Positions 1 through 10,954 of a stretch of 64,000 nt of DNA are shown piece after piece. The notes under the pieces were generated by a model. The model worked only from the letters and a program-made list of their open reading frames with translations. It was not told where the DNA came from and did not search any database. The stretch lies in the NCBI RefSeq assembly GCF_000426725.1, contig NZ_AUFX01000003.1, forward strand, positions 496,001 through 560,000, in the 5' to 3' direction. This DNA comes from Sporocytophaga myxococcoides DSM 11118 (GTDB taxonomy: Bacteria; Bacteroidota; Bacteroidia; Cytophagales; Cytophagaceae). The position numbers were made by a program, and so were the translations under genes. The first letter of the stretch is position 1, and each line of letters starts with the position of its first letter.

Positions 1-588
1 CCTGTGCTGGAGCATTTGAATATTCATAAAGCCAGAGTTGCAGTCATTGCAGTATCAGATCCTGTAGCTACAAAACAGATTGTAGTTAATATCAGAAACA
101 CAAGCAAAAATATTCACCTTATTGTTCGTACCAGATTTATTCAGGACACAGAGCTTCTATTCAGTCTTGGAGCCAATGAAGTGATCCCAGAGGAGTTTGA
201 GACCTCTATAGAAATATTTACTAGAGTATTAACATCTTACCTTGTGCCTAGGCAGGAGATCGAAGAGTTTATTCAGGAAATCAGAGAAGACAACTATGAA
301 ATGCTTAGACTATTACCAGGATCAACAGCAAGAAAAAATTTTTCACTAGCTATACCAGACATAGAAATAGCCGCTATTTCGGTTCAGAATGAAACATTCG
401 AAATCGTAAATAAAAAAATTGCAGATTCAGGAATAAGAAAAAAATTCGGAATAACGATTATCGCGATCAAAAGAAAAACTCAATTGATTACTTCAATAGG
501 TCCGGATGAGCAAATTTATGTATATGATACAATTTATATATTGGGAAAACCTGAGGACATATATAGATTCAGTAAAAAATTAAAATAA
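1..588 (+). CDS. C-terminal part of a KefB-type monovalent cation:proton antiporter (partial)
   Basis: The reading frame is open to the left edge, so the membrane-spanning antiporter domain lies outside the window. What remains is the end of an RCK N (TrkA-N, NAD-binding) domain, with the family pattern of an IVRTRF strand followed by LGANEVIPEEFE, and then a linker. From about residue 115 there is an RCK C (TrkA-C) domain that ends in YILGKPEDIYRF. In this family the cytosolic RCK domains gate potassium or sodium/proton exchange at the inner membrane in response to nucleotides. The next gene starts 60 bp downstream on the same strand and encodes a channel homologue, so both may act on ion homeostasis; that link is inference. 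The family is clear from the sequence; the transported ion is not. Confidence 0.82.
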   Translation, partial: PVLEHLNIHKARVAVIAVSDPVATKQIVVNIRNTSKNIHLIVRTRFIQDTELLFSLGANEVIPEEFETSIEIFTRVLTSYLVPRQEIEEFIQEIREDNYEMLRLLPGSTARKNFSLAIPDIEIAAISVQNETFEIVNKKIADSGIRKKFGITIIAIKRKTQLITSIGPDEQIYVYDTIYILGKPEDIYRFSKKLK

Positions 589-648
589 TAAGGTAACTCA
601 TTTTTTCATTCAGTAATTCTTACTAATTTTCTATGAGATAACAAGCTC

Positions 649-1620
649 ATGCAAAGACTTCTATTTGTTTTATTATTCCTTTTTACATTTTCATTTAAAT
701 CTGCTTATTCTATCTCACTGAAGAAGGAAGGAGCTGCGGATACCGTTCATATAGGTGCTTACGTGCTGAGTCTTCACGATATAAATTTTAAAGATAAAGA
801 ATATACTATGCGACTATGGCTCTGGATGCTGTATAATAATCCAGAGTTTGATTTCACTACTCAAGTGGAGGTACCTAATGCTAAAAATATTGAAAAACCG
901 GATGTAATGGTTGACACTATTGATGGGAAAATATGGGTACTAATGAAAATGAAATGTGTTATGAAACAAAACTGGAAAGTGCATGACTACCCATTTGACA
1001 GGCAACACATTAAAGTTCATATAGAAAACACCATGTTTGATGCCAGCAACCTTGTGTTTGTGCCGGATACACTCGGAAGTAAATTTGATAAGGACTTTGC
1101 TATAGATGGCTGGAACATATCCAATTTCAAAGTTAGCTCAGGTGTAAATGAATATTCTACGGCATTCGGTGATATAACCCTGGATAAACAGCACTCAGAA
1201 TATGGAGCATTCTTTATAACACTAGATTTGGAAAGAAATGCATGGGGCTTGTTTTTCAAGTTATTTCTAGGAATGTACATAGCATTTTTCATTGCATCAA
1301 TAAGTTTTGTAATAGATCCAGAAGATATAGATCCAAAGTTCGGACTTCCTGTGGGTGGACTATTTGCGTCAGTCGGCAATAAATATATTATAGATTCAAT
1401 ACTTCCCGAAACTACATCTTTCACTCTTGTAGATTCACTCCATTCACTAACATTCCTTTTTATACTTTTCATCATTGCTGCAAATGCCTATTCTTTAATT
1501 CTTGACAGAAGAGGAAGAAGAAATAATGCCCGCAGTTTTAATAAAACAGCTGGTAAGGTCATTTTAACTACTTATTTCTTTGTAAATATCTTCATGGTTA
1601 TTCTTGCCATTTATAAATAA
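649..1620 (+). CDS. Divergent prokaryotic pentameric ligand-gated ion channel (Cys-loop receptor family) homologue
   Basis: A 323-residue protein with an N-terminal signal peptide (about residues 1-21), an extracellular beta-rich domain (about 30-195) and four predicted membrane helices (about 199-223, 231-250, 260-285, 301-321). The extracellular part carries YPFD at 114-117, the signature of the Pro-loop of bacterial Cys-loop-type receptors, which lack the bridging cysteines. Residues 228-253 align without gaps to the M2 pore helix of GLIC and end in the same LP at 252-253 before M3. The pore-facing positions are unusual (Gly at 2', 6', 7' and 13', Phe at 9'). Known members are proton- or ligand-gated cation channels of the inner membrane. 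The ligand here is unknown. I am fairly confident of the fold; channel activity is inferred. Confidence 0.72.
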   Translation: MQRLLFVLLFLFTFSFKSAYSISLKKEGAADTVHIGAYVLSLHDINFKDKEYTMRLWLWMLYNNPEFDFTTQVEVPNAKNIEKPDVMVDTIDGKIWVLMKMKCVMKQNWKVHDYPFDRQHIKVHIENTMFDASNLVFVPDTLGSKFDKDFAIDGWNISNFKVSSGVNEYSTAFGDITLDKQHSEYGAFFITLDLERNAWGLFFKLFLGMYIAFFIASISFVIDPEDIDPKFGLPVGGLFASVGNKYIIDSILPETTSFTLVDSLHSLTFLFILFIIAANAYSLILDRRGRRNNARSFNKTAGKVILTTYFFVNIFMVILAIYK

Positions 1621-1688
1621 TCTGGAAAAGGTGGAATGATTTTCCTCCAGATTACGTTTGTAGAACTTCAACGTATAGTCTCAAACAT

Positions 1689-1826
1689 ATGAAATTACTG
1701 GATTTACTGGTATTAAGCTTTATCCTTGGAGTAACCTTTTCCATCGGATATGTTTTTACCACTGCTTCAATGATTCTTTTATACTCATTCATTTATGCTT
1801 CAATAGACAGTATCAATTTTGACTGA
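1689..1826 (+). CDS. Small hydrophobic membrane protein, 45 aa (possible)
   Basis: An ATG-to-TGA reading frame of 45 residues lies between the channel gene and efp, on the same strand. It starts MKLLDLLVLSFILG and contains one or two hydrophobic segments (about residues 4-24 and 25-38), ending in a polar DSINFD tail. I do not recognise a family. A single start with no obvious ribosome binding site is normal in this phylum, so the call rests on length, hydrophobicity and position only. Confidence 0.4.
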   Translation: MKLLDLLVLSFILGVTFSIGYVFTTASMILLYSFIYASIDSINFD

Positions 1827-1858
1827 CAATGATTAAAAAAGGATTCTTTAAAGTTTTA

Positions 1859-1891
1859 TTTGTTTTTTAAGTAATACTTCCGTTAAATTTG
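1859..1891 (+). promoter_or_regulatory. Predicted Bacteroidota-type promoter of efp
   Basis: A TTTG at 1859-1862 is followed after 21 bp by TAAATTTG at 1884-1891. This matches the Bacteroidota sigma-A consensus (TTTG, 17-23 bp, TAnnTTTG). Initiation about 7 bp downstream would leave an mRNA leader of roughly 10 nt before the efp ATG at 1908. Seen by motif match only. Confidence 0.55.
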
Positions 1892-1907
1892 AGCCAAATT
1901 TCTATTT

Positions 1908-2471
1908 ATGGCTAATACTTCCGACATTTCAAAAGGGTGTTTTTTAAGATTTAACAATGAATTAGTGCAGGTTTTGGAATACGAGCACCGTACTCCTGGA
2001 AACTTACGTGCATTTTATCAGGTAAAAATGAGAAACATTAAAACTGGTAAACTTGTAGAACACAGGTTTCGTGCCGGGGAAGATGTTGAACTTGTAAGAG
2101 TTGATGTAAATGATTATTCCTACCTGTATGATGAGGGCCCTAGCCTGGTTCTTATGGACAGTGTAACATATGAACAAATCTCTGTAGACAAACTACTTTT
2201 TGGAGACAGCCTTAAATTTCTTAAGGAAGGAATGGTAATTAAAGTTTCTTTTGATGGCGATACTCCTATTTATGCAGAGCCTCCTACTTCTGTGGAGCTT
2301 GAAGTTACCTATACCGAACCAGGTATAAGAGGCGATACTGCAACTAAAACATTAAAACCTGCGACTCTTGAGACTGGTGCTGAAATCAGAGTACCTTTAT
2401 TTATAGAGATAGGTGAAAAAATTAAAGTAGATACCCGTACAGGTGACTACATGGAACGAGTAAAAAGTTAA
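1908..2471 (+). CDS. efp: Translation elongation factor P with an Asn-tipped KOW-domain loop
   Basis: A 187-residue protein spanning the usual EF-P length, with an N-terminal KOW-like domain (1-65), OB domain II (about 66-128) and OB domain III (129-187) with the C-terminal signatures YTEPGIRGDTA and KPATLETGAEI. EF-P binds between the P and E sites and rescues ribosomes stalled at polyproline. The domain I loop reads PGNLRAF at 30-36. With the invariant PG...AF spacing, Asn32 occupies the place of the lysine or arginine that is post-translationally modified in most EF-Ps, and Leu33 replaces the glycine. An Arg is two residues on (Arg34). A terminator follows directly, so the gene appears monocistronic. 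Confidence 0.96.
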   Translation: MANTSDISKGCFLRFNNELVQVLEYEHRTPGNLRAFYQVKMRNIKTGKLVEHRFRAGEDVELVRVDVNDYSYLYDEGPSLVLMDSVTYEQISVDKLLFGDSLKFLKEGMVIKVSFDGDTPIYAEPPTSVELEVTYTEPGIRGDTATKTLKPATLETGAEIRVPLFIEIGEKIKVDTRTGDYMERVKS

Positions 2472-2489
2472 TATTCCGATTTAATAATG

Positions 2490-2522
2490 AAAAAGGGCCG
2501 TTGAAAACGTCCCTTTTTTTTT
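2490..2522 (+). terminator. Rho-independent terminator of efp
   Basis: An A5-GGG arm pairs with a CCC-T-run arm around a CGTT/AACG inner stem with one mismatch and a 3-nt loop. A run of nine T follows. It lies 18 bp after the efp stop codon. Confidence 0.8.
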
Positions 2523-2557
2523 GCCCTTTGGGACAATTACTTTCTAGTTAGCACTTA

Positions 2558-2671
2558 CTAACCAAAGATCAAAACCATAAGCAGAAAAGTGATAATGAAA
2601 GATAAATACATTATCGCATCTACCACATAGTATTTTTTATATTTTTTAATTAACTCAAGCAGGCTTTTCAT
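2558..2671 (-). CDS. Small single-span membrane protein, 37 aa (possible)
   Basis: An ATG-initiated frame of 37 residues on the minus strand. It has a basic, amphipathic N-terminus (MKSLLELIKKYKKYYVVD) followed by a hydrophobic segment of about 17 residues ending in VLIFG. It lies 41 bp downstream of the PH-domain gene on the same strand, so the two could be cotranscribed. The positive-inside layout is what a short membrane peptide would have. No family recognised. Confidence 0.4.
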   Translation of the reverse strand: MKSLLELIKKYKKYYVVDAIMYLSFIITFLLMVLIFG

Positions 2672-2712
2672 GCTTCAAATTATATACTTTTTTCTCAACA
2701 GGACAATTTTTT

Positions 2713-3108
2713 TCAGGAATTTTCACGAATAAGCAAATTTATAAGCTCCACCATTTCTGCTGCTCTTTCGGGGTCACAGCCTTTTAGCCTGATTTCTTTT
2801 TTACTTTTTGTATGAACAATTAATTCAACTGAAATAAACATGCTTTTCGTAACTTCAATCCCTATGATATCGTCATAAATAAGCTGCTCCAATACTGGCT
2901 GATGATGTTTATTTACCCCAACATAAAAAACTCTGGTATCTGTGGCAATTGCCACCCCAAGAGTGTTAGATATTGCACCTTCTACAACATTTAAAATGGT
3001 CTCATCAGGCCGGAGGCTTTTAGCCAGGTCATTAAATGCAATTTTTCCCAGATTGGGCTGATAGCCTATTTCTGAAAATCTGGTATTGATATTGACAATC
3101 GTCTGCAT
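2713..3108 (-). CDS. Bacterial PH-domain (YokE-like) protein
   Basis: I place the start at the ATG at 3108 (MQTIVNIN); a GTG 39 bp further upstream is also in frame but would add a hydrophobic stretch with no family support. The protein is then 131 residues. Residues about 30-125 alternate short beta strands (ILNVVEGAI, GVAIATDTRVFYVGV, LIYDDIIGIEV, VELIVHT, EIRLKGC) and end in an alpha helix (ERAAEMVELINLLI). This is the pattern of the YokE/bPH pleckstrin-like fold, usually of unknown function. It is cytosolic, as no signal peptide or membrane helix is seen. Confidence 0.6.
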   Translation of the reverse strand: MQTIVNINTRFSEIGYQPNLGKIAFNDLAKSLRPDETILNVVEGAISNTLGVAIATDTRVFYVGVNKHHQPVLEQLIYDDIIGIEVTKSMFISVELIVHTKSKKEIRLKGCDPERAAEMVELINLLIRENS

Positions 3109-3302
3109 AAAAAAGTTATGAGTTACACGTAAAAATACGATGACCACATTCCCTGAGTTTTGCCATTTCGGCCAATGTGGACAAATTTCTTCTAGCTATA
3201 AAAAGACTTTCTTTAAATATCAATAATTTAAGCTAATTCAATTCGTTTTAATTTGTCTGGTCCGAAACTTCTTTTTCGATTAATTTTACCAAAAGTACCG
3301 AT

Positions 3303-3581
3303 ATGAATGCTATTATAAATTTTGATCTTATAAAAAATGAGGCTCCAACTGCCTGGAAAGATTTTGAAGGGTTTTACTCCCAAAATTTCAATAAGTTGCA
3401 TTTTTTGAGCGGAATTTCCTTTGAAATACTTCCTTTCGAAATGCAATTGGGTATTATGTTAAAATACTTTACTGAAAACGCTGTGGAAGTAGATATTTGC
3501 AATAATGATTTTGATACTCTTCCTGAAACATTTTCTGATACATTCCGGACTTATGAAAAAGTAATTGCTCATTATTCTTAG
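3303..3581 (+). CDS. Conserved hypothetical protein, 92 aa
   Basis: A 92-residue ATG-initiated frame (MNAIINFDLIKNEAP) with balanced composition, rich in Phe and acidic residues, no signal peptide and no membrane segment. A strong hairpin terminator lies just beyond its stop, which supports a transcribed gene. I do not recognise a domain. The opposite-strand frame at 3228-3446 is less gene-like and is taken as its shadow. Confidence 0.55.
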   Translation: MNAIINFDLIKNEAPTAWKDFEGFYSQNFNKLHFLSGISFEILPFEMQLGIMLKYFTENAVEVDICNNDFDTLPETFSDTFRTYEKVIAHYS

Positions 3582-3597
3582 TTATGCATTAAATATA

Positions 3598-3636
3598 AAA
3601 AAAACGACTGTTCATTTTGAACAGCCGTTTTTTTTA
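3598..3636. terminator. Bidirectional terminator between a plus-strand gene and parC
   Basis: The inverted repeat CTGTTCA/TGAACAG with a TTT loop is extended by CG/CG and by an A-run on the left and a T-run on the right. It can therefore terminate both the 92-aa gene (+) and parC (-), whose stop is at 3639. Confidence 0.85.
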
Positions 3637-3638
3637 TA

Positions 3639-6221
3639 TTAGAATAAGCCTAACTGATCATCTTTAGGCTTTTTCTTTGAGGGAATATCACCTTCTTCCG
3701 AAGCTTCAAGTAATAATATTTTATTTATTTTATTAGTACTAATCTTATTCCCAACAGCTTTCCAGCCTTTCACTTCAACAAAATCATTAAGACTAATTTT
3801 TTCAGACGGAACAGAAACAAATTTACCTTTGGCATAATCCACCTGGATTATAGGATTCTTTTCTGTGCTTATAACTACTAGTTTTGAATCCGCATTTTCA
3901 GAGATAAATCCAAACTTCTTTGCAGCAGTATTTGTCTCCATCTTGAATCTTTTTGCAAAATAGTTCTTTGATGATCCGTCATAATAAACTGCAGAAATGA
4001 GTCTTTCAGGATCAAATTTCTCCATGTGCAATAATTCTTCTGTATTGTATCTATTGGTCAATTCATAGGTTGTCAGTTCATAAGTGCCTTCTTTATAGAA
4101 AACAAGGATCTTATCTTCTCCTTCAAAATTCCCAATGTATTTTCCTTTCTTATCGTTGTTCAGACGCCCTACAGTTTCATCAAAGTATACCTCTTTACCG
4201 CCAAGAGTTGATTTTCCTGCAGCTTTAAACTGAATTTTCTTAACAGGATATTTGGTCAAGATATTACCTAAGACATTTCTCGCTTTTATTTCAAGTTCAG
4301 AAAAATCAAACTCAAAGTCTTTGATTTTTGCTTTGGCAGTCGGAGCAAGAGTAATACTAACAGTCTCTGCTTCTCCATTCGGATTTGCGCTAAAATAAAG
4401 AATCTTAGATCCTTTACTTCCTTTAGTTAAATCATATTCTTTATCTCTGGTTACCCCTAACACCTGGAATCTTTTAACGAATACAGTTCCGGAAGCAGCA
4501 TCCAGATAGGCCATATTGTAAACCATGCGGTCGTCACCTTTTCTGAAAATACCTGCATAAAGAATATCTTTCCCAACAAAGACCTTCTCACCGATCTTTT
4601 TAATTACACAAACTCCGTCTTTCCTGAAAACTATGACATCATCTATATCAGAACAGTCACAGATATATTCGTCTTTCTTTAATCCATAACCGATAAAACC
4701 TTCGGCCTTATTGACATATAGCTTTGCGTTTATTGCGGCTACAACAGTTGCTGAAATAGTTTCAAAAGTTTTGATCTGAGTTTTACGCTCTCTTCCATGA
4801 CCATATTTTTTAAGAAGGTTTTGGAAATAAGCGATAGCATATTCTATCAGATGTGCCAGATTATGCTCAACCTCTTTCAGTTCTTCTCCAAGATTTCTCA
4901 TCAATTCATCCGCTTTAAATGCGTCAAATTTTGAGATTCTCTTGATCTTGATTTCTGTAAGCCTTACCAGATCATCTTGAGTAATTTCTCTGTAAAACTG
5001 CTTCTTATAAGGCTTCAAGCCTTTGTCTATTGTCTCCAATACAGCTTCCCAGGTTTCGCACTCTTCAATATTTCTATAGATCCTCTTTTCTATGAATATT
5101 TTCTCAAGAGAAGAAAACAATAGTTTTTCCTGAAGATGATTCTTTTTGATCTCCAGCTCCTGTCTAAGCAGCTCTACAGTTTTGTCTGTAGATATTCTCA
5201 GAATTTCATTTATACTTATGAAATGAGGCTTTTCATCTATAATTACACAAGCATTCGGAGAGATACTGATTTCGCACTCTGTGAAAGCATATAAAGCATC
5301 AATAGTGATATCCGAAGAAACTCCAGGAACTAGCTGGATTAGTATTTCAACATCCTTGGCAGTGTTATCAATTACCTTTTTGATCTTGATCTTTCCATTA
5401 TCATTGGCTTTGATAATGCTTTCTATTAAAGAAGTTGTTGTAGTACCAAATGGTATATCCCTGATTACTAATGTCTTCTTGTCAAGATCTTCAATTTTTG
5501 CTCTAACTCTTACTTTTCCGCCTCTTAGACCTTCATTGTAATTAGCTACATCAATTGAGCCTCCTGTAGCAAAATCAGGATAAAGAGTAAATTTCTTATT
5601 CTTCAAATGAAGAATTGAAGCTTCAATCAATTCACAAAAATTGTGAGGAAGGATTTTGGTAGAAAGTCCCACAGCAATACCTTCGACACCATGTGCTAAT
5701 AATAATGGGAACTTTACAGGAAGTGTTACAGGCTCATTTTTTCTTCCATCATATGAAATCTGCCACTCCGTAGTTTCAGGATTAAAAACAATTTCAAGGG
5801 CAAGTTTTGAAAGACGCGCTTCAATATATCTTGGAGCAGCGGCAGAATCACCTGTTCTGACATCTCCCCAGTTCCCCTGAGTTTCAAGTAGAAGATCTTT
5901 CTGACCTATATTAACTATGGCTTCACCAATGGATGCGTCCCCATGAGGGTGATACTGCATAGTTTGCCCAATGACATTTGCTACCTTATTAAATCGACCG
6001 TCGTCCATTTCCTTCATAGAGTGAAGGATTCTTCTCTGAACAGGCTTTAATCCATCTTCAATAGCAGGAACCGCACGTTCCAGAATTACATAAGAAGCAT
6101 ATTCCAGAAACCAGTTTTCATACATACCGGAAACAGGCAGTACATCATGAATGATATCACCCCCATTACCAGATCCCTGGTCCTGTATATTATTTGCATT
6201 ATTATCTCTATCGTCAGCCAT
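3639..6221 (-). CDS. parC: DNA topoisomerase IV subunit A (ParC-type)
   Basis: An 860-residue type IIA topoisomerase A subunit, which cuts and rejoins the DNA gate with ParE to decatenate chromosomes. After a polar N-terminal tail (1-27) comes the breakage-reunion domain, with QRR at 62-64, HPHGD at 91-95 and the catalytic tyrosine Tyr132 preceded by Arg131 (AAAPRY). A long coiled coil lies at about 385-480. The C-terminal third is beta-rich, as in ParC-type propeller domains, and ends in an acidic/lysine tail (PKDDQLGLF). It lacks an obvious GyrA box, which favours topoisomerase IV over gyrase. A TATATTTG element on the minus strand at 6288-6281 is a possible -7 box. parE lies 940 bp upstream on the same strand. 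Confidence 0.93.
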   Translation of the reverse strand: MADDRDNNANNIQDQGSGNGGDIIHDVLPVSGMYENWFLEYASYVILERAVPAIEDGLKPVQRRILHSMKEMDDGRFNKVANVIGQTMQYHPHGDASIGEAIVNIGQKDLLLETQGNWGDVRTGDSAAAPRYIEARLSKLALEIVFNPETTEWQISYDGRKNEPVTLPVKFPLLLAHGVEGIAVGLSTKILPHNFCELIEASILHLKNKKFTLYPDFATGGSIDVANYNEGLRGGKVRVRAKIEDLDKKTLVIRDIPFGTTTTSLIESIIKANDNGKIKIKKVIDNTAKDVEILIQLVPGVSSDITIDALYAFTECEISISPNACVIIDEKPHFISINEILRISTDKTVELLRQELEIKKNHLQEKLLFSSLEKIFIEKRIYRNIEECETWEAVLETIDKGLKPYKKQFYREITQDDLVRLTEIKIKRISKFDAFKADELMRNLGEELKEVEHNLAHLIEYAIAYFQNLLKKYGHGRERKTQIKTFETISATVVAAINAKLYVNKAEGFIGYGLKKDEYICDCSDIDDVIVFRKDGVCVIKKIGEKVFVGKDILYAGIFRKGDDRMVYNMAYLDAASGTVFVKRFQVLGVTRDKEYDLTKGSKGSKILYFSANPNGEAETVSITLAPTAKAKIKDFEFDFSELEIKARNVLGNILTKYPVKKIQFKAAGKSTLGGKEVYFDETVGRLNNDKKGKYIGNFEGEDKILVFYKEGTYELTTYELTNRYNTEELLHMEKFDPERLISAVYYDGSSKNYFAKRFKMETNTAAKKFGFISENADSKLVVISTEKNPIIQVDYAKGKFVSVPSEKISLNDFVEVKGWKAVGNKISTNKINKILLLEASEEGDIPSKKKPKDDQLGLF

Positions 6222-6357
6222 TCAATTTTTAAAGTTCCTGATTCAAACAAAAGGTTTAACCGGTAGAATTCCGGATCCTTCAAATATATTATAAAATTCT
6301 TTTTTCCCGAAAAGGAAAATTTACACATTCCTGCCTAATTATTAACTTTGCCTTATT

Positions 6358-6729
6358 ATGAACAAAATAAAATTATTTTTCCTGTGCCTTTGTGTTGGTT
6401 TTTACTCTTGTGGATCAAAAGATAAATTTCCGGAAATTGATAAAAATGTGTGGCTACAGGATAAAAAAGCTTGCCAAAACAAAAGAGAAGAAATGGCAAC
6501 AACACTGATAAACAACAAAGAACTAATCCTGGGGCTTAAGGAAGAGATACTCTTAGAAAAGCTAGGAAGACCAGATAAGCATGATTATCAGAAAAGAGGG
6601 AGAAAAATTTATTCTTACTATATAACTCCAGGCAAACAATGCTCCTTACAATATCCTGAAGAAGGTAAAAGAATTGTATTTGAAATGAATGCTCTTGGAC
6701 TTATAGCTTTGATTACAATTCAAAATTAA
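6358..6729 (+). CDS. Small outer-membrane lipoprotein, possibly SmpA/BamE-like fold
   Basis: A 123-residue protein with a lipoprotein signal (MNKIKLFFLCLCVGFYSC; acylated Cys18). The mature part has a helix (KKACQNKREEMATTLI), then ILLEKLGRPDKHDY and a short strand region (KIYSYYITPG, RIVFEMN, GLIALITI). The LGxPD turn followed by an aromatic strand is reminiscent of the SmpA/OmlA (BamE) family, which supports outer-membrane protein assembly, but the match is weak. It is divergent from parC (136 bp apart). The function is unknown; the lipoprotein assignment is the firm part. Confidence 0.7.
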   Translation: MNKIKLFFLCLCVGFYSCGSKDKFPEIDKNVWLQDKKACQNKREEMATTLINNKELILGLKEEILLEKLGRPDKHDYQKRGRKIYSYYITPGKQCSLQYPEEGKRIVFEMNALGLIALITIQN

Positions 6730-6758
6730 AAAACAAGCAACTAACTTCTAAACAAAGA

Positions 6759-6787
6759 AAGCCTGTTTTTATATTAAAAACAGGCTT
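6759..6787. terminator. Hairpin after the lipoprotein gene
   Basis: AAGCCTGTTTTT pairs perfectly with AAAAACAGGCTT across a 5-nt loop, 29 bp beyond the stop codon. The T-run sits inside the stem, so termination is plausible but less certain than for a classical hairpin plus U-tract. Confidence 0.6.
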
Positions 6788-6861
6788 CCAGGAAAATATT
6801 AAAACTTGGTACACCAAATCCCTCTTACCAATACCCAATTAACAAATCCAAATATACAATT

Positions 6862-7035
6862 TTATAGAAGTATTAATAATCTTCGTGCTATTTTAATAAA
6901 GCTTCTCCCCTTCTTCTTAAGCTTCTTTTTGTTGTTACCGGATTTTCCTTCTTTACCTGATTTCGAATCTTTTTTTGAATTCTTGGGTAATTCAGGTTGA
7001 AAGATTTCTCTCATCAAAACATAGTGGTCTAGCAT
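6862..7035 (-). CDS. Very basic microprotein, 57 aa (possible)
   Basis: The frame begins MLDHYVLMREIFQPELPKN, continues with a Lys/Ser/Gly-rich low-complexity middle (about residues 19-43, mostly Lys) and ends in an amphipathic helix (SFIKIARRLLILL). It lies 125 bp downstream of parE on the same strand. The composition would suit a nucleic-acid-binding tail or a membrane-active peptide; neither is shown. The plus-strand frame over the same bases (6806-7000) is mostly Phe/Leu/Pro and looks like its shadow. Confidence 0.35.
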   Translation of the reverse strand: MLDHYVLMREIFQPELPKNSKKDSKSGKEGKSGNNKKKLKKKGRSFIKIARRLLILL

Positions 7036-7160
7036 AGCGGCTAAAGTTTAATTGTATACGAATATACCCTACAATATGATAAAACTCAAGCTTTCTTAGT
7101 TAATCACCAAACTACGATAGACGAAATTAATGTAATAGAGTCCCTGATTTTAGTCAGATT

Positions 7161-9059
7161 TTAAATTTCCATAACATTTGCTTCTTTCCTTAATGCATCT
7201 TTTTCATCGCTTTCTACCAAATCCTTTTCAACTTTAAGGTTTTCAATTATAAACTGCTGTCTTTCAGGGGTATTTTTCCCCATGTAGTAATTAAGTAGTT
7301 TTTGTATGGAAGTTTCCTTTTGTAATAAGATTGGTTCAAGCCTGATATCCTCTCCAATAAATCCTCCAAACTCATCCGGAGAAATTTCACCCAATCCTTT
7401 AAATCGGGTTATCTCTGGTTTGCCGCCTAATTTCTTTATCGCAGCTCTTTTCTCTTCCTCACTGTAGCAATAAATTGTTTCTTTTTTGTTTCTTACTCGG
7501 AATAATGGTGTCTCCAAAATAAACAGGTGACCATTTCTCACCAAATCAGGAAAGAATTGTAAAAAGAATGTCAACATAAGCAAACGGATGTGCATACCGT
7601 CCACATCGGCATCTGTTGCAATAACTATTCTATTATATCTAAGATTTTCAAGTCCATCTTCAATATTCAGAGCATGTTGCAATAAATTGAACTCTTCATT
7701 TTCATAAACAATCTTCTTTGTAAGTCCAAAACAATTCAATGGTTTACCTCTAAGACTGAAGACAGCCTGCAACTCCACGCTTCTGGATTTAGTAATCGAG
7801 CCACTCGCAGAGTCCCCCTCAGTAATAAACAAGGTAGAATCATGTCTCTTTTCGTTGTTCAGGTCGTCAAAATGGAAGCGGCAGTCTCTTAGTTTTTTAT
7901 TGTGAAGATTTGCTTTTTTCGCACGCTCATTGGCTAGTTTTTTAATACCTGCAATGTCTTTTCTTTCTCTTTCCGACTGTAAGATTCTTTTTAATAAAGC
8001 GTCTGCAACTGCTGAATTTTTATGAAGGTAATTATCAAGCTCTTTTTTAACGAACTCATTCACCCAGGTTCTGATTGCCGGACCATCCGGACCTGCATTA
8101 ATAGATCCTAACTTAGTTTTGGTCTGAGATTCAAATACAGGCTCTTGAACTCTCACTGCAATTGCCCCTACAATAGAGGCACGGATATCAGAAGCATCAA
8201 AATCTTTTTTAAAAAATTCTCTGACTGTTTTTACAACTGCTTCTTTTAATGCAGCAAGGTGAGTTCCTCCCTGAGTTGTATACTGACCGTTTACAAATGA
8301 ATAATACTCTTCTCCATATTGATTAGCATGGGTGAGAGCAAGTTCGATATCGTGACCTTTAAGATGTATAATAGGATATCTTAAGCTTTCTTCATCTGTT
8401 TTTCTCTTCAAAAGGTCCAGTAAACCATTCTGAGAATAATATTTTTTCCCATTATAGTTAATAGACAGACCGGCATTAAGAAACGCATAGTTCCAAAGCT
8501 GATCTTCCAGATATTCAGGAATAAATCTGAAATGCTTGAAAATAGTATCATCTGGTATAAATGACATAAGTGTACCATTCTTCTGGTCACATTTTGTTTC
8601 TTTATGATCATTTACCAAAACTCCCTTTTCAAATTCAGCAACTTTTGTCCTTCCTTCACGAATAGATTGTACTCTAAAATAGCTGGAAAGTGCGTTAACC
8701 GCCTTTGTTCCGACCCCGTTCAATCCCACTGACTTTTGAAAAGCACCGGAATCGTATTTTCCTCCTGTATTGATTTTAGATACGCAATCAATTACTTTTC
8801 CAAGTGGAATTCCACGCCCATAATCTCTGACCTCCACCCTATTATCGGAAATAGTTATATCTATAACATTTCCATTTCCCATCATATGCTCATCAATGGA
8901 GTTATCTATAATCTCTTTGACCAAAACATAAATACCATCATCCTGCCCTGATCCGTCTCCAAGTTTTCCGATATACATACCGGGACGAAGTCTGATATGC
9001 TCTCTCCAGTCCAGCGATCTAATGCTATCTTCGGTATATTCAGTTTTGGTTTTTGCCAT
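7161..9059 (-). CDS. parE: DNA topoisomerase IV subunit B (ParE-type ATPase)
   Basis: A 632-residue type IIA topoisomerase B subunit. The GHKL ATPase motifs appear in order: DNSIDEH (about 51-57), YGRGIPLG and [14 protein letters not shown]. The transducer domain follows, then the TOPRIM domain with EGDSASGS and DADVDGMHI, which coordinate magnesium at the DNA gate. The C-terminus ends in an acidic tail. The length fits ParE (about 630 residues) rather than GyrB with its insert. It pairs with ParC, encoded about 1 kb downstream on the same strand but with intervening genes, so the two are probably not one transcript. The start [18 protein letters not shown] is the standard family N-terminus. 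Confidence 0.95.
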
Positions 9060-9388
9060 AATTTTGTTATTGACCTGATTTACAATTTTATAAGATATAA
9101 GATGTATTCATTTTTAGGAAATCAAATCCTAAATCCCGTCCATTCTTACTGCGAAATTACTTTAATAGTTCAAATTTTACTTATTTTTTGAATAAGGAAA
9201 TGATTGATAATCGTAATATGTGGAAAATTAAAACTTAAGTAAGTACTTTTGAGGGATTTTAAAATGGTACCTAATTTTTGAAATCAATTTGAATGCTAAA
9301 CCGCATTAGAAAAATTACAAAAAATAATTTAAACGTACTAAACGGAACTTTTTTTGGTTAAATTACCAGGCCAAACCTTGTGACAATT

Positions 9389-10954
9389 ATGAAAAAAATC
9401 CTTTTTGCCTTACTTCTGACAACTATCTCATTGAAAATGAATGCACAAACTGACATTCTGCTTCCAATGAATGATATTGAAAAGAAGGAGGTTATTCGAC
9501 TTCTCACCTCATATGACGGCTTTCTGAATTTTGTAGCTCAGAAACCTTCAGAAGCTGATCAAAAAAAGGAGTCTGTCACATTTTTAAAAACAACTGTCAG
9601 CAATGCAAATATTTCGGTTTATAATGACCTTGATTCTGCAGCTAAAAATGATGACTATGAAAATGTATTCAAATACTGTCAGCGGGTTCCAAAGACGTTT
9701 CCTGCAACAGTCAAAATAAAAACTACTCCTAAAAATCTAATAGTAGAAAAAGTGAAGTATGACAAAATCAGAAGATACTATTTTGTTGAGATAAAAGGAG
9801 ATAAAGATTTTACATGGAAAGAGGTTGTTCAAAAAGCAGCTTCAGATTCTGTCTCTACATCTGTTGATTCAATTGCAGTAAGCGACACCATCGTTCACTC
9901 AATAAAAAAAGGCATATCAGTTTTCATAAAATTTGACAGAGAAAATAATGTCTCTAAAAATTTTAAAATTTTTGCTATTAGTAAAACAGGGGTTGCACCA
10001 AAGCTGGAACCTCTTCCTCCACTTATTTCATGGTGGCTTACGCTTGAACCTGACTGGAAAGCAATGCTGAGAAAAAAGAGAAACCTGGAAGAGTACCCAC
10101 GAGAGTTTGATCTTGAAAAAGCGACAGGAATATTTGAATTTGACTGCTCAAATTCCAATCTTAAAAATCTTGAACCATTAAAGAAATTTACTTCCCTAGA
10201 AAAGTTAAATGTTTCAGGTAATCCGATTACTGATGCTTCTGCAATATTTGCTGTAAGTTCTCTTCTGGAGCTAGACTTGACAAGAACTCAAATCACCAGC
10301 TTAGACGGAATTGAAAATCTAAAGAATCTTCAAGTGTTAAAAGTTTCAAGTTTAAAGCTTAAAAGTATAGAACCATTGAAGAATTTGGTTCAGATGGTTG
10401 AGCTGGACTGTTCTAACAATGAAATTGAGGACCTAACTCCTCTTACTAATCTTGTAAACCTTAAAGAGTTGAATGTCGGCTTAAATATTAAAGTAAAAGA
10501 CATTTCAATGATGAAAAACTTAGTACTTCTGGAGAAACTAAGCATACAAAAAATTGACATTAAATCACTTGCTCCACTGAGTGGTCTTGTAAATCTTGTT
10601 TTATTGGATTGTTTTAATACTGATATCACAACATTGGAACCTATCCGAAATCTGGTAAAGTTGTTTCACCTAAACATAGACCACACAATGGTTTCCAGTC
10701 TGGATCCTATTAAACACTTTAAATTCATTGCGAATCTTTATTTAGCATCGAGCAGTGTTAAGGATCTATCTGCAATCAATAACTTTTATGCAATACGCGA
10801 GCTGGATATCTCCAATACTGAATTAACCGATCTTGGCCCCATTCATAAATTGGAGTATATAAGAGTATTGAAATGCTTTTATACCAAAATTGATAAAAAC
10901 GAAGTACAGCGTTTTAAGAAAAATCATCCGGGCTGTCAGATCACTTATTATTAA
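9389..10954 (+). CDS. Secreted leucine-rich repeat protein (internalin-like repeats)
   Basis: I use the ATG at 9389, which gives a clean signal peptide (MKKILFALLLTTISLKMNAQ), over a GTG 9 bp upstream. The mature protein of about 500 residues has a unique N-terminal half (about 20-230) with no family I know. From about 240 to the end there are ten or so 22-residue repeats of the SDS22/internalin type (for example LTSLDGIENLKNLQVLKVSS, with L..LdCsnNeIedLtPL). Such repeats normally form a protein-binding solenoid. There is no sorting domain at the C-terminus, so the protein may be periplasmic. It is preceded by a 320-bp gap and ends 7 bp before the convergent transpeptidase-like gene. Confidence 0.75.
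   Translation: MKKILFALLLTTISLKMNAQTDILLPMNDIEKKEVIRLLTSYDGFLNFVAQKPSEADQKKESVTFLKTTVSNANISVYNDLDSAAKNDDYENVFKYCQRVPKTFPATVKIKTTPKNLIVEKVKYDKIRRYYFVEIKGDKDFTWKEVVQKAASDSVSTSVDSIAVSDTIVHSIKKGISVFIKFDRENNVSKNFKIFAISKTGVAPKLEPLPPLISWWLTLEPDWKAMLRKKRNLEEYPREFDLEKATGIFEFDCSNSNLKNLEPLKKFTSLEKLNVSGNPITDASAIFAVSSLLELDLTRTQITSLDGIENLKNLQVLKVSSLKLKSIEPLKNLVQMVELDCSNNEIEDLTPLTNLVNLKELNVGLNIKVKDISMMKNLVLLEKLSIQKIDIKSLAPLSGLVNLVLLDCFNTDITTLEPIRNLVKLFHLNIDHTMVSSLDPIKHFKFIANLYLASSSVKDLSAINNFYAIRELDISNTELTDLGPIHKLEYIRVLKCFYTKIDKNEVQRFKKNHPGCQITYY

Follow-up and report, generated by a model that had tools for sequence, protein, structure and literature searches.

The subject of this study is an open reading frame (ORF) at positions 649 to 1620 of a 64,000-nucleotide stretch of DNA (referred to here as the window) that lies in the 6.34 Mb genome of the soil bacterium Sporocytophaga myxococcoides DSM 11118. 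Judged by its sequence and predicted fold, the ORF is a genuine subunit of a pentameric ligand-gated ion channel (pLGIC). The glycine-rich pattern of its pore helix M2, which includes a phenylalanine at position 9', is found in related proteins and marks a subfamily. Bacterial pLGICs have long been known; the Phe9', glycine-rich M2 is, from the aligned sequences, a real and conserved variant of them.

A channel gene and its predicted parts

The original prediction, made from the nucleotide sequence alone, had described a pLGIC homologue with a signal peptide, a YPFD Pro-loop and four membrane helices, and each of these elements was recovered. Features are listed by window position and amino acid (aa) number.

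649-1620, + strand: pLGIC subunit gene, 323 aa (ORF, Pfam domain, GLIC matches and predicted fold)
649-714, + strand: probable signal peptide, aa 1-22 (modelled hydrophobic N-terminal helix of aa 2-22; judged by inspection)
727-1239, + strand: periplasmic ligand-binding domain, β sandwich, aa 27-197 (PF02931; eight strands and one short helix modelled over aa 31-197)
988-999, + strand: Pro-loop YPFD, aa 114-117 (Pro115 and Asp117 present in all 107 rows)
1243-1308, + strand: M1 helix, aa 199-220, with Gly208 at the M1 14' kink position that is Pro in most pLGICs (model)
1330-1407, + strand: M2 pore helix and flanks, aa 228-253, -2' to 23' (gap-free to GLIC; conservation)
1408-1434, + strand: M2-M3 loop, aa 254-262, conserved FTLVD (T259 invariant and D262 at least 90% in an 18-row alignment)
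1435-1614, + strand: remainder of M3, plus M4 and a short cytoplasmic link, aa 263-322 (model)
1-588, + strand: C-terminal part of a CPA2-type (Kef-like) antiporter, upstream, with a 60 bp gap to the channel gene (genomic context)

The four C-terminal helices of the model span aa 199-220 (M1), 232-251 (M2), 260-287 (M3) and 291-322 (M4), and the Arg preceding M1 is Arg196. Residues of M2 are D-2', K0', G2', P4', G6', G7', F9', G13', N14', K15', Y16', D19', L22' and P23'; the residues originally assigned to 2', 4', 6', 7', 9' and 13' were thus correct, and Tyr16', Lys15', Asp19' and the replacement of the M1 14' proline by Gly had been missed.

Homology to the pLGIC superfamily

The Pfam model Neur_chan_LBD (PF02931) was matched at 29.9 bits (cut-off of 26) over aa 85-196, and the same model matched 16 of the 18 rows of the 18-row alignment (E values up to 0.01). 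When solved structures were searched by phmmer, entries of GLIC, the proton-gated channel of Gloeobacter violaceus, accounted for all of the best 60 of 73 matches (best E value of 4e-6). The best match spanned residues 73-317 and aligned M2 continuously from D228 (-2') to L252-P253 (22'-23'), as had been predicted. A profile of 31 relatives matched GLIC itself at an E value of about 1e-13, and a chimeric and a mutant form of GLIC at 8e-15. The predicted single-chain fold was likewise of the pLGIC type, with a β sandwich in the extracellular domain (ECD) followed by four transmembrane (TM) helices, and was structurally matched to GLIC. The two proteins have in common the ECD with four TM helices, the YPxD loop, the acidic -2' residue and the gap-free M2, but are only 16-18% identical in the structural match and differ in M2, where GLIC has T2', S6', I9', A13' and I16'.

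An [F/Y]PxD loop with invariant proline is a defining pLGIC trait (Jaiteh et al. 2016). The loop is present as YPFD at aa 114-117, and Pro115 was invariant in all 107 rows of the protein set described below. Arg196 and loop Asp117, which are partners in known structures, were each likewise found in 107 of 107 rows. The proline at 23' between M2 and M3 is present (Pro253) and was conserved in 93 of 95 rows with Phe9'. By contrast, two common but non-defining residues, Pro at M1 14' and Leu9' (77% and 75%, respectively, of pLGICs in a 561-sequence alignment), are replaced by Gly208 and Phe239; Phe9' accounted for 13% and Gly at M1 14' for 5% of that alignment (Jaiteh et al. 2016).

Prokaryotic pLGICs were described in 2004, those of the related bacterium Cytophaga hutchinsonii included; C. 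hutchinsonii is reported to have three ART-LGIC versions (Chut0841 and others), one of which has a simple ECD with four TM helices (Tasneem et al. 2004, PMC549065). Only one copy of the channel gene was detected in the S. myxococcoides genome, where two other pLGIC types used as queries matched only this same gene. The nearest named relatives were from Sporocytophaga assemblies, at 98% and 92% identity.

Conservation of the M2 pattern

To survey the glycine pattern, 122 proteins were collected, of which 108 were unique and 107 were retained once a spurious row, from a further ORF of locus L116, had been removed. Because the queries were the window protein itself or alignments of related proteins, Phe9' is over-represented in these rows, and the counts are not population frequencies. 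The 9' residue was Phe in 95 rows and Leu in 12. Among the 95 Phe9' rows, Gly was found at 2' in 82, at 6' in 90 and at 13' in 86, while 7' was occupied by Ala (44), Gly (30) or Ser (21). The same rows had Lys15' (86), Tyr16' (89), Asp/Glu19' (87), Asp/Glu at -2' (86) and Arg/Lys at 0' (92), and their M1 14' residue was Gly in 79, Cys in 8, Pro in 4 and another residue in 4. By contrast, all 12 Leu9' rows had Thr6' and the M1 14' Pro. Pro4', which the original prediction had listed among the unusual residues, was found in 22 of 95 Phe9' rows and in 7 of 12 Leu9' rows. Two of the Phe9' rows (L085 and L081, proteins of about 720 aa) were misaligned over 2'-6' and were included in the counts and entropies but excluded from the helical wheel.

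All 86 rows with Lys15' also had Asp/Glu19', at a spacing of i to i+4. This co-occurrence, which reflects few independent changes, suggests that the two residues are paired.

Mean column entropy was determined for eight regions in 40 rows of less than 70% pairwise identity. M2 was the least variable (1.14 bits), followed by the M2-M3 loop (1.55), Pro-loop (1.63) and M1 (1.65), with higher values for the ECD (2.10), M3 (2.19) and M4 (2.61). The channel gene is under strong purifying selection, as nonsynonymous and synonymous divergence (dN and dS) were 0.009 and 0.50 to the 98% identical orthologue and 0.042 and 1.02 to the 92% identical orthologue. The low dN relative to dS, together with M2 being the least variable region, indicates that the M2 pattern reflects more than chance.

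Phylogeny and distribution

A tree was constructed from 48 of the 107 rows, including 7 of the 12 Leu9' rows. The 41 Phe9' rows were all located on one side of a single branch (support of 93/82; 92% of bootstrap trees), within which a fork of 39 Phe9' rows was weakly supported (80/84) and several branches were long. The two long-protein rows (L085 and L081) were set apart on a very long separate branch. We delimit a G6'/F9' subfamily by Gly6' and Phe9' and by location on one side of the tree branch; the window protein carries both residues and lies on that side.

The 18-row alignment covers identities as low as 24%, and the residues invariant in it were G36, Y38, W59, P115, D117, Q119, D140, G174, R196, G232 (2'), F239 (9'), T259 and Y309. 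A loop-C-like motif, Y-x-T-x-F-G-D (YSTAFGD at aa 169-175), was also strongly kept across the group, with G174 invariant and Y169 and T171 each at least 90% in the 18 rows; this conservation suggests a shared ligand site.

A Pfam-model search of the phylum identified only 1 of 198 genomes and missed the window gene itself; as it was too insensitive for frequencies, protein and alignment queries were used instead. In GTDB species genomes, 56 loci were matched. Genomes with a match numbered 26 out of 395 for the phylum, 34 out of 395 for the class (26 of the 34 at E values below 1e-80) and 17 out of 19 for the host's family (12 at E values below 1e-120). Nine further family loci (L132-L140, three from the same genus) all had Gly6', Phe9', Lys15' and Tyr16', with Ala2' in two of the nine. 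Phyla beyond Bacteroidota were reached through plasmid records, of which ten (eight of Azospirillum and two of Streptomyces) were matched by tblastn and four copies were examined. Gly2' and Phe9' were kept in all four, while Gly6' was found in one (A. brasilense, L089) and was Ala, Thr or Ala/Ser in the other three. Thus, Gly2' and Phe9' extend to Bacteroidota, Pseudomonadota and Actinomycetota, and Gly6' is firm in Bacteroidota. Phage records were not matched, and of 155 pattern-matching stretches in viral contigs none was confirmed; a phage or viral origin of the channel gene was rejected on this basis.

Tandem channel paralogues with the same M2 were observed at L004:4064-5948, L006:788-2964 and L009:3045-5016, on contigs of which two are titled Cyclobacteriaceae and one Bacteroidetes; the second L009 copy runs off its contig. 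Heteromeric channels are conceivable in genomes with such paralogues. Four matches were detected in one class genome (G663). The long proteins L085:1267-3423 (- strand) and L081 matched the ECD part of the profile, L085 without a Pfam match, and open frames of this type (about 700-730 aa) were present in 10 of the 19 family genomes, with no long protein of the L085/L081 type found in the S. myxococcoides genome when it was searched. They are possibly of the fused-sensor type reported in C. hutchinsonii.

Proposed mechanism

Taking the homology and the conserved pattern together, we consider it reasonably probable that the ORF encodes a homopentameric, probably cation-selective channel that would be gated by a periplasmic ligand and closed by an aromatic gate. 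In the mechanism proposed, a small ligand would be bound by the periplasmic β-sandwich domain, and the binding signal would be transmitted to the pore helix by way of the YPFD loop, Arg196 and the conserved M2-M3 loop. At 2', 6', 7', 10' and 13', the M2 helix of the subfamily carries glycines or other small residues, and its two aromatic positions, Phe9' and Tyr16', lie on the side of the helix that is pore-lining in relatives. Phe9' would replace the usual Leu/Ile gate and Tyr16' would form a second ring. The glycines may provide room for the bulky rings and allow close packing and flexing of the M2 helices, Asp19', one helix turn further along, may hold Lys15', and cations may be favored by the acidic ring at -2'. 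The original prediction had envisaged a single aromatic ring at 9' and had overlooked Tyr16', which is on the same face as 9' and brings the number of aromatic positions to two.

Several observations weigh against this mechanism. The M2 helix of the model (aa 232-251) was of low confidence, with mean predicted local distance difference test (pLDDT) values of 58, 63, 69 and 62 for the successive ten-residue blocks of aa 221-260. The NCBIfam models LGIC_1 (NF033918) and LIC (TIGR00860) were matched at 33.7 and 43.3 bits, far below their cut-offs of 500 and 280.2. Gly2' was substituted in 13 and Gly13' in 9 of the 95 Phe9' rows, and M1 14' is still Pro in four Phe9' rows (two from Streptomyces and two long proteins), such that Phe9' and loss of this proline are not strictly tied. 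The ion selectivity of prokaryotic members is not generally predictable from pre-M2 residues (Jaiteh et al. 2016), and no functional datum on the Phe9' subfamily was found in the portions of the literature covered. The helical wheel, considered next, adds a further point.

On a uniform wheel (100 degrees per residue, no structure), the small-residue face of 38 Phe9' rows was centered 72 degrees off the canonical pore axis (moment of 12.9), compared to 40 degrees (6.4) for GLIC and 48 degrees (4.5) for seven Leu9' rows, and to 8 (9.0) and -9 degrees (9.6) for the bacterial channels DeCLIC and sTeLIC. Part of the small stripe may thus pack against a neighboring helix rather than line the pore. 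The glycine-rich M2 originally proposed is real and conserved, but it does not by itself establish a purely glycine-lined pore. An extension of this point would be that the glycines serve mainly in helix packing, with a small-xxx-small stripe (2'-6'-10', plus 7' and 13') that packs M2 against M2 or against M1/M3, such that they do not line a wide pore and a narrow resting pore opens by an unusual helix movement. The change from Pro to Gly at M1 14' in 79 of 95 Phe9' rows also points to altered helix packing; against this, the wheel is an idealized one whose angle is only moderately unlike those of GLIC and the Leu9' rows, and 2', 6' and 13' belong to the canonical pore positions. We regard packing as somewhat unlikely to be the main role of the glycines, and it is compatible with part of the aromatic-gate mechanism. 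When the M2 segment (aa 225-264) was compared to the PDB, no match was found at E values up to 10, a 40-residue query being weak.

The aromatic positions and the glycines could alternatively be read as signs of a non-conducting, receptor-like protein, in which the rings plug the pore and the protein acts in signalling or scaffolding. Two conserved pore positions are indeed bulky and aromatic, and Gly occupies 2', 6' and 13' in most rows, where polar rings are common; yet the acidic -2', the base at 0' and the coupling residues are retained, and no further domain for signalling was detected by Pfam in the window protein. This reading appears improbable.

Comparison with characterized channels

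The M2 residues were compared to those of characterized channels, with the DeCLIC and sTeLIC registers counted from the LP at 22'-23' in alignments. The structure 6fl9, which we take to be sTeLIC, has D2', G6', L9', A13' and F16', and DeCLIC (6v4a/9ftg) has E2', G6', L9', A13' and F16'. Both share Gly6', a small 13' and an aromatic 16' with the window subfamily and differ from the window protein in Leu9' and an acidic 2'. The original statement, which assigned Thr/Ser and large aliphatic residues at these positions to the known bacterial channels, is thus wrong at 6'. ELIC, also a pLGIC, has an aromatic 16' like the window protein but differs in Q2', T6' and L9'. The animal Cys-loop receptors (GABA-A, GlyR and GluCl), nerve receptor channels to which the window protein is related, are different in their Cys-loop cysteines, Leu9' and polar 6'/13'. 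Constrictions of DeCLIC have been reported at L554 (9') and F561 (16') (PMC9897478), and DeCLIC has an additional N-terminal domain.

These similarities bear on whether the protein is simply an ordinary pLGIC, with glycines and Phe9' that make no special gate and a behavior like that of DeCLIC, ELIC or GLIC. Gly6', Ala13' and Phe16' already occur in DeCLIC and sTeLIC, and Phe9' and the M1 14' Gly make up 13% and 5%, respectively, of the alignment of Jaiteh et al. (2016) mentioned above. However, the pattern is more than tolerated, given that no other region measured in the group is as well conserved as M2 and that all rows of the 18-row alignment, which reaches down to 24% identity, have Gly2' and Phe9'. 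We view an ordinary gate as a possibility of lesser weight. A broader proposal, which we put forward only tentatively and hold to be doubtful as a whole, is that the subfamily, present in at least three bacterial phyla, has an aromatic double gate (Phe9' and Tyr16'), a glycine-scaffolded M2, Lys15'-Asp19' pinning and, in most members, no M1 proline kink, with gate chemistry and helix motion unlike the Leu/Ile gate of characterized members.

In this superfamily, an aliphatic ring at 9' is generally regarded as the gate. A conserved natural group with Phe9', Tyr16' and glycines elsewhere in the pore offers a ready-made test of how gating depends on the 9' ring and the M1 proline. No title among the literature matches listed names a glycine-rich or Phe9' bacterial subfamily, although the supplementary alignment of Jaiteh et al. 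may show the group. According to that paper, none of the pLGICs of unicellular organisms has a known biological role (Jaiteh et al. 2016); with the group so common in the host's family (a match at E values below 1e-120 in 12 of 19 genomes), gene deletion in a laboratory member of the family could provide the first one.

Gene neighborhood

The upstream antiporter (Na_H_Exchanger, TrkA_N and TrkA_C domains; 661 aa in L087, where the gene is full) ends at 588. This agrees with the RCK-type domains originally described; the ion-homeostasis link suggested from them is weak, with adjacency confined to the genus. A single operon with a shared role in ion homeostasis would be consistent with the 60 bp gap on the same strand, in which a simple scan detected no terminator-like site, and with the gene order kept in Sporocytophaga loci (L002, L018 and L132-L134, some possibly from the same assemblies). 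A predicted operon with a Na+/H+ symporter has also been reported in Microbulbifer (Tasneem et al. 2004). By contrast, the antiporter was found at only 2 of 56 genome-contig loci, both Sporocytophaga (some others have cut flanks), and at none of 6 loci from other genera of the family, with flanks of only about 1.5 kb. The link is genus-specific at best, and we think it very unlikely that the two genes form a functional unit.

No neighbor family was present at more than 8 of the 56 genome-contig loci (clusters of at least 5 loci considered). The most frequent, at 8 of 56, was a PD40-OmpA gene on the opposite strand, found in Sporocytophaga (L002 and L018) and at six Cyclobacteriaceae-type loci, as well as at three further loci. 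Other families, at 5 to 7 loci, were mostly from Mucilaginibacter. PD40-OmpA was rejected as a linked partner, as the family is multi-copy (58 matching stretches in the S. myxococcoides genome) and the copy beside the channel was only the 13th best; its location is thus no evidence of a link. The family is greatly expanded in this genome, with several members in a row at C19:1199891-1205754. No RNA element was matched by Rfam in window positions 1-10000. Further downstream in the window, genes at 1908-2471, 3639-6221 and 7161-9059 resemble, by inspection, elongation factor P and a DNA gyrase/topoisomerase IV-like pair.
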